Shown: one piece after another, positions 23,122 to 25,887 of the stretch
How the letters are laid out: each line of letters starts with the position of its first letter
How positions within the stretch are numbered: position 1 is the first letter of the stretch
Assembly: GCF_000296835.1 (NCBI RefSeq)
Contig: NZ_CAKE01000025.1
Span: forward strand, 1 to 64,000
Source: Lactobacillus hominis DSM 23910 = CRBIP 24.179
Lineage (GTDB): Bacteria; Bacillota; Bacilli; Lactobacillales; Lactobacillaceae
Reading direction: 5' to 3'
DNA length: 64,000 nucleotides
Position numbers and translations under genes: made by a program
The notes under the pieces: model-generated
Databases searched by the model: none
Seen by the model: the letters and a program-made list of their open reading frames with translations, nothing else
What the model was told of the DNA's origin: nothing

Positions 23122-23142
23122 CCTGGCAATTCTCTTATTTTT
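23102..23142. terminator. Bidirectional terminator overlapping two stop codons
   Basis: AATAAGAGAATTGCC and GGCAATTCTCTTATT are perfect arms; each contains or abuts the stop codon of one of the two convergent genes. Confidence 0.88.
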
Positions 23143-23764
23143 TTACTTGTCTTACAAATGTTTGATCTGGCACTCTGATCAAATAATATTGCGTTGCAGT
23201 TCTTCCCGCATGTAACCCTAAACCGTTATACCAGTTGCGTTTATATGTTGCAGTATAAACAGCGACATAGGCATTTTGATAATGGCTATCAGCTTTTTTG
23301 AGTTCTTTTTCAGAATATGGAATGGCACTAGCTGCTACAGATAATGGATTTGTACCGTCAGAAATAGATGCATAGTTACTGTTAACTGTCATCTTAGTAC
23401 CATTACTGTACCAGCGATAGCTTTGCCGTGGAGCTGTATTATTGCTCGAAGTTGCAGTAACATAATACGAACCTTTTTTATCAGTACTTAAAATTAGGGA
23501 TTCATACTCTACTTTACTATCAATCAATGACTTATTTTGTAAATCAGGATGGCTAAAGAAAGTTAAAAATGACATAGAAATTACAGCACCTAAAAAGATT
23601 ATTACCTCAAGCGCATCTAGCAAGGTCGTACTCCATTTAAATCTTTTACGATCCTTAACAATCATCATTATGTGTCTTTTTCGAATGTTTTGAATAATAA
23701 AAACTAAATATAAAACGATAACCAACCACGCCAAAATTCCCAAGATATTCCAGCCAATTGTCAT
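23135..23764 (-). CDS. Membrane protein, unknown (LVIS_2131-like?)
   Basis: A 209-residue protein with N-terminal helices at about 4-25 and 50-72 separated by a basic cytoplasmic loop, followed by an extracellular domain of about 135 residues rich in Tyr, Ser and Asn. The layout recalls a small family seen in Lactobacillaceae under the name LVIS_2131, but I am not certain of the match. No catalytic motif is visible. It stands alone between a convergent gene and the divergent nrdI. Confidence 0.55.
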   Translation of the reverse strand: MTIGWNILGILAWLVIVLYLVFIIQNIRKRHIMMIVKDRKRFKWSTTLLDALEVIIFLGAVISMSFLTFFSHPDLQNKSLIDSKVEYESLILSTDKKGSYYVTATSSNNTAPRQSYRWYSNGTKMTVNSNYASISDGTNPLSVAASAIPYSEKELKKADSHYQNAYVAVYTATYKRNWYNGLGLHAGRTATQYYLIRVPDQTFVRQVKK

Positions 23765-23878: not shown

Positions 23879-23925
23879 TAACATGTAATGTTATTAAATA
23901 TGTTAAAAAATTAGTTAGGCAGATT

Positions 23926-24384
23926 ATGGTTGCAGTAGCTTTTTATACAATAACTGGGCAAACCGCGCACTTTATTGATAAAACCGGTTTAGTTGCCCAC
24001 CAAATCGAAGATGCAAATCCACATTATGATATGGGGGAAAAATATGTTCTAGTTTTACCTTCATATCAAGATTTTATGATGGACTCAGTCGTAGATTTTT
24101 TAACCTACAAGAATAATAAAAAGAATCTTATTGGTTTGATTGGATGCGGAAACCGTAACTTTAACGATTTATTTGCCCAAACTGCTAAGAAGATTTCTGT
24201 TACTTTACATGTTCCCATACTTTATTTATTAGAATTAAGCGGTAACAGCGAAGATGTAGTAAATGTGCGCCAAATTATTGAGCAACTTTCGCAAAGCGAT
24301 AAAACTGCTCAACAAAAGGCCAAAGAAGTTGAAAAGCCTAAAGAATTAGGTAATATTAGTTTTTTGAGTGATTATAGGCAGTAA
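23926..24384 (+). CDS. nrdI: NrdI, flavodoxin-like activator of class Ib ribonucleotide reductase
   Basis: A 152-residue flavodoxin-like protein. The FMN phosphate loop is TITGQT at the N-terminus, and GCGNRNFNDLF and LLELSGNSEDV match the flavin-ring loop and ELSG motif of NrdI. In class Ib systems NrdI supplies the oxidant that assembles the Mn2-tyrosyl radical of NrdF. I start at the ATG at 23926 because NrdI begins directly with the first beta strand; an upstream TTG would add 22 residues lacking homology and would overlap the promoter. It is followed after two bases by the NrdF homologue. No nrdE or nrdH is adjacent. Confidence 0.85.
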   Translation: MVAVAFYTITGQTAHFIDKTGLVAHQIEDANPHYDMGEKYVLVLPSYQDFMMDSVVDFLTYKNNKKNLIGLIGCGNRNFNDLFAQTAKKISVTLHVPILYLLELSGNSEDVVNVRQIIEQLSQSDKTAQQKAKEVEKPKELGNISFLSDYRQ

Positions 24385-24386
24385 AG

Positions 24387-25334
24387 ATGACTAAACCATA
24401 TTTTAAAGCAGCAAACTGGAATGTTATGGAGCAACAAGTAGATAAATCTGCTTGGTCGCGTTTAAATGATATTGTTTATGAACCAGGAAGAATTCCCCTT
24501 CATAAAGATAAAAAAGAGTTTTTAACTCTCTCACCTATTGAGCAAAAAACATTATTACACAGTTTTGGCTCTCTTTCTTTAAGTTCAACTTTGCAAATGC
24601 AAAAAGGCATTAGTGCTATTAAACAAGATGCTGTAAATGCTAAAGAAGCAGCGGTTTTTAATGCACTGCAATATTTGGAATCAATTAATAATAAATCTTA
24701 TAGCTACGCTCTAGACCAATTAGGCACGCCCGATCAAAGAGATGAAGCCTATAAATGGGCCGACGAAAACCCATATCTCCAACAAAAAATGTATTTCTTA
24801 AATACTGTCTATCAAAGTGGTACTTCCTTGCAAAAAAAGGTAGCGCAGGTCTTTATTTCAACAGCGCTTTATCATTCAGCCTTCTTTGCTTCTTTATATC
24901 TATTTGGACAAGGAAAATTGCCAAGAACAGCAGAATTAATTAAATGCGCTTTGAGAGTAACTTCTTTTAACGGGATGTATCCGGGCATTAAATTTAGAAT
25001 TGCCTTCAACGAACTTTCTAAAGATAAGCAAGAAAAACTTCATGAATGGATTTATGACTTAGCTGATCAGATGTATGAAAATGAAGAAAAGCATATTGCT
25101 TATATGTATCAAAATACGGGCTGGGCTGACATGGTAAATCACTACGTCAAATACAGCCTTAACAAGGCCTTAATGAATCTAGGACAAGACGCCAAATACC
25201 CTGAAACAGCTGATAATATCGACCCAGTTGTAATGCAAGGATTAGTTGAAAGTGCTGATGGCGAAGACTTCTTCTTTTACACTAACCGCCATGCTTTAAC
25301 TAAATTTCGTGAAATAAAACATTTCGATGAATAA
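24387..25334 (+). CDS. NrdF-like R2 homologue lacking most metal ligands
   Basis: A 315-residue protein that aligns from end to end with class Ib NrdF (WSRL, IPL, LSPIEQKTL, NKSYS, QGKLPRTAELIK, KALMNLG). By alignment with Salmonella NrdF, five of the six metal ligands are gone: D67 is Ser67, H101 is Asn101, E158 is Ser158, E192 is Thr192, H195 is Asn195. Only E98 and the radical Tyr105 remain. The conserved Trp near 31 is Tyr, and the C-terminal tail lacks the usual SYV and acidic-W-F elements that serve radical transfer and NrdE docking. It cannot hold the normal dinuclear site. A metal-free radical enzyme, a regulatory pseudo-subunit or a new function are all possible; the pattern differs from the known class Ie (VPK/QSK) variants. 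Confidence 0.85.
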   Translation: MTKPYFKAANWNVMEQQVDKSAWSRLNDIVYEPGRIPLHKDKKEFLTLSPIEQKTLLHSFGSLSLSSTLQMQKGISAIKQDAVNAKEAAVFNALQYLESINNKSYSYALDQLGTPDQRDEAYKWADENPYLQQKMYFLNTVYQSGTSLQKKVAQVFISTALYHSAFFASLYLFGQGKLPRTAELIKCALRVTSFNGMYPGIKFRIAFNELSKDKQEKLHEWIYDLADQMYENEEKHIAYMYQNTGWADMVNHYVKYSLNKALMNLGQDAKYPETADNIDPVVMQGLVESADGEDFFFYTNRHALTKFREIKHFDE

Positions 25335-25354: not shown

Positions 25355-25400
25355 AAAAGTCATTTAAATCGACAAATTTTCGTTGATCTAAATGACTTTT
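25355..25400. terminator. Bidirectional terminator after the NrdF-like gene
   Basis: AAAAGTCATTTA and TAAATGACTTTT arms with further internal pairing, between convergent genes. Confidence 0.8.
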
Positions 25401-25887
25401 ATTTTTTATCGTCTTTTTTGCTATCGGCATCTTTATCATAGCTTCTAACGACCTTTAATTTCTCGCTGATATCGCTAGCAAGTTGATCTGTGTATTTATC
25501 CGTATCGGCCTCAATTTCGCTTACAGAAGCTAAAATATCGATTCTGAAATGAGATACATTTATATAATCAGAAATTGTTTCAAAATAAATATTTACTTCA
25601 TATTCATCTTCGTCATTGCAGAAATTGCTAATCTTCTTGTAATTAGCAAATGGCAAATTAATAATATTACTTTCTAAAGCAAAGGTAACTGGGCGTTGAC
25701 CTGCAACTGCCAATTGCGTCTGAATTAAAGAATTGTGTTTGGCAGCTTGAACGACCTCTTGGATCATTTTTTTAGCAAATGCTTTAATCTTAGTTTTGTT
25801 TAATTCACTATATTTAATTGTTTCAAGATCTTGAAGATAATCTTGATCTTCTATTTTTTTAGTAATTTCTTCTTGTTTAATTTTCAC
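25399..25887 (-). CDS. Hypothetical protein, acidic/lysine-rich
   Basis: A 162-residue soluble protein with no signal or membrane segment. It starts with a charged helix (KIKQEEITKKIEDQD), continues with helical and beta-strand segments (VNIYFETISDYINVSHFRID) and ends in a Lys/Asp tail. I do not recognise a family. Upstream on the same strand is the structured RNA that terminates about 85 bases before this gene, so read-through could link them. Confidence 0.5.
   Translation of the reverse strand: MKIKQEEITKKIEDQDYLQDLETIKYSELNKTKIKAFAKKMIQEVVQAAKHNSLIQTQLAVAGQRPVTFALESNIINLPFANYKKISNFCNDEDEYEVNIYFETISDYINVSHFRIDILASVSEIEADTDKYTDQLASDISEKLKVVRSYDKDADSKKDDKK

Follow-up and report, generated by a model that had tools for sequence, protein, structure and literature searches.

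The gene at 24387..25334 of the window (the whole stretch of 64,000 nucleotides of Lactobacillus hominis DNA that was analysed) encodes a NrdF-fold protein, hereafter NrdF*, which lacks five of the six dimetal ligands of canonical NrdF and is coupled to an intact nrdI. We put at about even the chance that the products of nrdI and nrdF* have been repurposed as a redox module of two proteins that is independent of ribonucleotide reductase (RNR). The descent of the pair, the constraint acting on it, its residue changes and the absence of an R1 are supported by the data.

Identity and metal site of NrdF*

The open reading frame has an ATG start and 315 codons for amino acids, matches PF00268 at 181.5 bits (Pfam cut-off 33.6) and is the sole PF00268 match in its own genome. 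Its score was 347.6 against NF007183, above the cut-off of 320, and 256.4 against TIGR04171 (class Ib NrdF), below the cut-off of 355. The top solved relative by sequence was S. sanguinis NrdF (4n83, E 4.7e-85), and Salmonella NrdF (1r2f) was matched at E 3.1e-57; the alignments span residues 4-300 or 6-298 of the solved NrdFs (6-298 for 1r2f), and the 1r2f alignment is gapless at the active site, as the sequence-only reading of this DNA had claimed. The predicted model (pLDDT 84.5, pTM 0.85; low confidence at 24-29 and 288-315) also had 4n83 as its nearest PDB entry in Foldseek (TM 0.81/0.89), and the window protein is a NrdF in sequence and in fold.

In Salmonella numbering the protein has S67, E98, N101, Y105, S158, T192, N195 and Y31, and among the ligands D67, E98, H101, E158, E192 and H195 it has E98 alone. 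The 1r2f alignment thereby bears out the earlier statement that positions 67, 101, 158, 192 and 195 had become Ser, Asn, Ser, Thr and Asn, with Glu98 and Tyr105 retained. The gene and its key codons are as follows, with residue counts taken over 29 NrdF* and 26 canonical NrdFs from 25 other Lactobacillaceae genera.

24387..25334, plus strand: nrdF*, encoding the NrdF-fold protein that lacks five of the six dimetal ligands (profile, structure-relative alignment, predicted model)
24585..24587, plus strand: Ser67, ligand Asp in canonical NrdF; S in 29/29 NrdF*, D in 26/26 canonical
24678..24680, plus strand: Glu98, the one ligand kept; 29/29 NrdF*, 26/26 canonical
24687..24689, plus strand: Asn101, canonical ligand His; N in 14 and A in 15 of 29
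24699..24701, plus strand: Tyr105, radical-tyrosine position; 29/29 NrdF*, 26/26 canonical
24858..24860, plus strand: Ser158, canonical ligand Glu; E in 15, S in 12 and N in 2 of 29
24873..24875, plus strand: His163, in place of channel Tyr163; H in 29/29 NrdF*, Y in 26/26 canonical
24960..24962, plus strand: Thr192, canonical ligand Glu; T in 28 and S in 1 of 29
24969..24971, plus strand: Asn195, canonical ligand His; N in 19, S in 9 and G in 1 of 29
25164..25166, plus strand: Lys260, channel-entrance residue retained; K in 28/29 NrdF*, 26/26 canonical

Across the family, Asp67, His101, Glu192, His195 and Asp191 are lost in 29/29 NrdF*, and Glu158 is lost in 14 and kept in 15; all six ligands and Tyr163 are present in 26/26 of the canonical NrdFs fetched from outside Lactobacillus. 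The S/E/N/S/T/N pattern of the window protein is conserved in part: S67, E98 and T192 hold in 29/29, 29/29 and 28/29, whereas positions 101, 158 and 195 vary. Trp31, which we take to be a radical relay residue of NrdF together with Asp191, is tyrosine in the window protein and changed in 13/29 NrdF*, and the C-terminal tail of canonical NrdFs, with its docking element, is absent from the window protein and missing in 28/28 whole NrdF* proteins; both alterations had been noticed beforehand. Twenty-five columns are fixed differently, with one residue in NrdF* (at least 27/29) and another in canonical NrdF (at least 24/26), and they include 67, 102, 162, 163, 192 and 204. Of the 142 positions at which the 26 canonical NrdFs all agree, 52 are retained in at most 2 NrdF* and only 39, Tyr256 being one of the canonical residues kept, in at least 27/29; the retention of Tyr105 or of Glu98, taken singly, is accordingly weak evidence.

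NrdF* thus resembles the class Ib R2, the dimanganese, NrdI-activated NrdF, in fold, length, gene neighbours and nrdI partner, and in having Tyr105, Glu98 and the channel residues Lys260 and Asn264. It differs in the loss of the ligands and of Asp191, in His163 for Tyr163, in the missing NrdE-docking tail and in the missing nrdE. A smaller metal site might have replaced the dimetal site, for example with one metal at Glu98 and His163 (each 29/29), joined by Glu158 in the half of the family that has it (15/29); the ligand histidines, Asp67 and Glu192 are, however, lost in every member, and we regard such a replacement as quite improbable. The kept Glu98, the newly fixed His163 and the partly kept Glu158 would leave room for weak or new metal binding.

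The metal-free class Ie R2 (R2e) is the other natural comparison. R2e is likewise NrdF-derived, with the old metal site broken and the tyrosine and nrdI kept, and two variants, VPK and QSK, are named in the available text of PMC11846895. According to the same text, the QSK structure has a new Lys, and its histidines and Asp occupy their normal positions (PMC11846895). R2e has its three glutamates changed, both histidines and the Asp kept, a new Lys and an R1 partner, whereas NrdF* keeps Glu98, which is changed in R2e, and has neither the histidines, the Asp and a Lys there nor an R1. At 98, 158 and 192, where class Ie would have VPK or QSK, the window protein has E98, S158 and T192, and the class Ie histidines and Asp are N101, N195 and S67. 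These residues exclude a class Ie identity, and the earlier suggestion of a route different from class Ie holds; judged by its sequence, NrdF* is a subfamily separate from class Ie.

A second NrdF with V98/P158/K192, of the class Ie VPK type, was observed in two genomes, L. kefiranofaciens (G026, locus L086) and L. kitasatonis (G028, locus L087), where it lies in the order nrdF-nrdI-nrdE. NrdF* is present in the same genomes, so the two kinds coexist. R2lox is also an R2 fold serving outside RNR; it has a Mn/Fe site and is not known to have a NrdI, whereas NrdF* is without the ligands and keeps NrdI. In a review network of more than 31,000 R2 sequences, the node colours mark either Ia/b-, Ic-, Id- and Ie-like sequences or the conservation of the tyrosine (PMC8463856, section 9). 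No recognisable description of a NrdF without the ligand histidines was found in the literature searched, whose coverage excludes most subscription journals.

Descent, distribution and constraint

The pair is flanked by two genes on the opposite strand.

23135..23764, minus strand: left neighbour, LVIS_2131-family gene (NF040508), found near nrdIEF in 4/26 canonical loci
25399..25887, minus strand: right neighbour, 162 aa, with no Pfam or NCBIfam match

For the 26 canonical loci, flanks of about 4 kb were retrieved to the left and right. In L085, a minus-strand LVIS_2131 gene is followed by nrdI-nrdE-nrdF on the plus strand and then, about 2.8 kb on, by a minus-strand gene related to the 162-aa one, an arrangement that matches the window in order and strands; L061, L063 and L080 have its left part, and no LVIS_2131 relative was found within the fetched flanks of the other 22 loci. 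BLAST relatives of the 162-aa gene (27-37% identity) lie upstream or downstream of nrdF in 4/26 canonical loci. Relatives of this gene also lie close to nrdI-nrdF* in many Lactobacillus loci. Based on the synteny shared with L085, L061, L063 and L080, the Lactobacillus line most likely started from an nrdI-nrdE-nrdF operon, from which nrdE was then lost. In the midpoint-rooted tree, in which NrdF* has a long branch, it does not fall inside the Lactobacillaceae NrdFs, so its descent rests on synteny.

A search of 75 genomes of the same genus gave 30 matches, one of which (G005) is a remnant only, leaving 29 genomes with NrdF*. The 29 proteins form a single clade in the tree with support 100/100, and its pattern of presence requires at least six changes when mapped on an rpoC tree built from 60 genomes. 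Across 38 Lactobacillaceae genera, represented by 396 genomes, NrdF* (439-531 bits) was confined to one genus (g1) among the matches listed, and the best match of the NrdF* query in the other 37 genera reached 327 bits. A two-peptide-pattern scan of 84,980 species genomes gave 19 confirmed relatives, all titled Lactobacillus. Some of the species genomes in the analysis are MAGs, two of which may be mixed. A recent mobile origin was considered and rejected, as none of the 619 matching records of the phage collection and 429 of the plasmid collection reached 60% identity at its best place.

The nrdF* frame is intact in 28/29 holders and frameshifted in L022. For 12 nrdF* pairs, 11 of them within one subclade, dN/dS was 0.060-0.124; three further pairs, with dS of 1.42-1.60 and hence near saturation, gave 0.032, 0.049 and 0.064, the lowest being that of the window gene and its nearest relative, also with synonymous sites near saturation. 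For 33 nrdI pairs the ratio was 0.031-0.205. A decaying pseudogene would have dN/dS near 1 and broken frames, and the values of 0.03-0.12 with 28/29 frames intact are far from this. Close relatives show the same ligand loss and not normal ligands, and dN/dS is low; a pseudogene or a sequencing error, which the sequence-only reading had named as possible refutations, was rejected on these grounds.

Some copies are nevertheless broken: nrdI is interrupted in 3/29 loci (L007, L009, L016) and has a changed end in L012, and in G005 (L032/L092) what is left of nrdI and nrdF* lies at the syntenic position, the two genes having been lost together and recently. Together with the L022 frameshift, these breaks indicate that some strains can do without the pair. 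They and the long tree branch are what could be expected if NrdF* were a functionless, slowly decaying remnant of a class Ib RNR; however, the low dN/dS, the intact frames, the new residues fixed in NrdF* and the gains in NrdI largely refute this explanation, which we hold to be very unlikely.

The NrdI partner and its channel

The gene upstream of nrdF* and its two family-specific features are as follows.

23926..24384, plus strand: nrdI, 152-aa flavodoxin-like NrdI (PF07972, 107.4 bits; TIGR00333 above cut-off)
24145..24147, plus strand: NrdI Cys74 in the GCGNRNF loop; Cys in 26/27 Lactobacillus NrdIs of this locus and 0/14 other NrdIs
24355..24378, plus strand: NrdI C-terminal motif ISFLSDYR; this type of motif in 25/27, and in 0/14 other NrdIs

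The start at ATG 23926 was picked from the conserved beginning of its relatives, the listed open reading frame beginning upstream at TTG 23860, and the PF07972 and TIGR00333 profile runs covered 23920-24381. With a TIGR00333 score of 77.4 against the cut-off of 74.65 and a stop codon (24382-24384) 2 bases upstream of the nrdF* start, the nrdI is intact and coupled to nrdF*, as had been proposed. In the 14 other NrdIs the position of Cys74 is Ser, Gly or Thr; the exceptions to ISFLSDYR are L009, with an early stop, and L012, with its changed end; and QDFMMDS occurs in 27/27 NrdIs at this locus and 0/14 elsewhere. The 27 NrdIs compared exclude L007 and L016, where nrdI is broken. In the same-genus search, every NrdI match above 40 bits came from a genome with NrdF* or from G005, where a remnant of NrdF* is left. 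The possibility that the NrdI tail is left over from the end of NrdE was also considered, and no resemblance was seen among the NrdE C-termini compared. With the NrdR-box consensus, no match with at most 3 mismatches, and no consistent one with 4, was found within 200 bases upstream of nrdI in a scan of 37 loci, the nrdI start of L085 not being located.

In B. cereus NrdF, the channel that leads from the NrdI flavin to the metal site is lined by Ser162, Tyr166, Lys263, Asn267 and the backbone of 195-196, according to the available part of PMC9462851. By a shift of 3, which Glu161 and the alignment suggest, these would correspond here to 159, 163, 260, 264 and 192-193. K260 is kept in 28/29 NrdF* and N264 in 27/29, position 193 is S or T in 26/29 and position 159 is T or S in 20/29. 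The NrdI partner gene and channel residues of a class Ib R2 are thus present, though with Tyr163 changed to His, and at the level of sequence the NrdI channel is in part kept and in part altered. From the kept residues we infer that NrdF* would dock NrdI.

In L. taiwanensis DSM 21401 (L014 1039-2436/L041 3539-4936), nrdI and nrdF* form a single frame of 465 aa, which stems from one A fewer than in L013 in the A run before the nrdF start. It may reflect slippage, a true fusion or a read error and is not binding evidence; the predicted model of the fused L041 frame had a pTM of 0.65.

Chemistry of the class Ie kind might also account for the kept Tyr105 (29/29), channel residues and nrdI, with NrdI oxidising Tyr105 to a metal-free tyrosyl or DOPA radical that acts on a partner other than NrdE. 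The relay residues are altered, Asp191 in 29/29 and Trp31 in 13/29, and no new radical acceptor was found. As a precedent, R2e acquires DOPA, with no metal bound, when co-expressed with NrdI, and the route to the modified tyrosine of class Ie is said to be unknown, both in the part of PMC11846895 available; QSK R2e, however, has both histidines, the Asp and the new Lys, and NrdF* has none of them (PMC11846895). On balance we consider this explanation rather unlikely.

Reductase content of the genomes and the role of the pair

The lack of nrdE, first noted beside the pair, extends to the whole genome, which has no PF02867 match for a class I R1 and no TIGR02505 match for a class II reductase. 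A canonical Lactobacillaceae NrdE protein query gave zero matches in 8 genomes including this one, none of which is a positive control, and the PF02867 model recovers full NrdE in G026 and G028 and so works as a control. The window protein has neither the NrdE of a class Ib R2 nor the tail for docking it, nor has the genome the R1 of a class I RNR. The sequence-only reading had suggested a regulatory decoy that binds R1 (NrdE), for which NrdF descent might speak; however, the docking tail is absent and the genome has only a class III NrdD, with no class I or II R1, so a decoy is scarcely conceivable and, for this genome, ruled out.

The NrdD lies on another contig than nrdI-nrdF*. In the 60-genome set, NrdD is present in 23/26 genomes with NrdF* and in 10/34 without it (Fisher p 5e-6), which might suggest that NrdI-NrdF* shields or re-reduces NrdD/NrdG under O2. 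The association comprises 4 independent pairs on supported branches and may reflect descent, the two genes are on separate contigs in L. hominis, and in G038 (L. rodentium) and G043 nrdI and nrdF* are intact although PF02867, PF13597 and TIGR02505 match nothing there; an accessory role for class III is thus improbable. G038 and G043 group as sister species on the rpoC tree and are therefore treated as a single event. In each of 6 genomes examined, including those of L. hominis, G038 and G043, two strong matches to deoxynucleoside kinases were found, and such paired kinases would point to salvage. No NrdD, NrdJ or PF02867 match was seen in 13/60 genomes (G008, G038, G041, G043, G044, G048, G050-G055, G074), and these Lactobacillus genomes are apparently without RNR.

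Considering the above results, the evidence favours the third proposal of the sequence-only reading, a new NrdI-dependent activity. A repurposed redox pair is preferred because the NrdI channel is largely kept, the NrdE face is lost, the site is rebuilt, and NrdI and NrdF* are present together. The available text of PMC9462851 describes that R2b binding tunes the NrdI flavin toward superoxide, and faster superoxide production is cited there. Since R2b-bound NrdI makes superoxide faster, an R2 without metal might still serve NrdI as an activator and a reaction chamber. By sequence, NrdF gave up four or five of the six ligands as well as the tail that docks NrdE, the pair remaining under purifying selection. 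In the model that we propose, NrdF* would still dock NrdI and would speed or direct the reduction of O2 by NrdI. Reduced oxygen species would travel along the kept channel to a polar pocket rebuilt from Glu98, Tyr105, His163, Ser67, Thr192 and Asn102, in which the old dimetal site is presumably no longer held. The output of the pair would serve something besides ribonucleotide reduction, the likeliest candidates being the handling of O2 or reactive oxygen, or the oxidation of some partner, in which the new tail and Cys of NrdI may take part. NrdI docking, oxygen chemistry, the lack of metal and any partner are what we infer in this model. A bolder form of it, a metal-free and R1-independent use of the R2 fold in which NrdI delivers reduced oxygen to the Glu98/Tyr105/His163 pocket and an oxidant or radical is made outside DNA precursor synthesis, is put forward tentatively, as possible but somewhat doubtful.

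To our knowledge, NrdI has been regarded only as an activator of NrdF proteins inside RNR. The chemistry of NrdI and NrdF may serve another purpose, as the pair has outlived the catalytic subunit through a radiation of species, and a role outside RNR is possible, as two sister species keep the pair without a recognisable RNR. NrdF* is a natural test of NrdI and O2 acting on an R2 fold without the old metal site. That many Lactobacillus species keep an apparently metal-free NrdF relative with its flavin partner suggests a new redox job for the pair.
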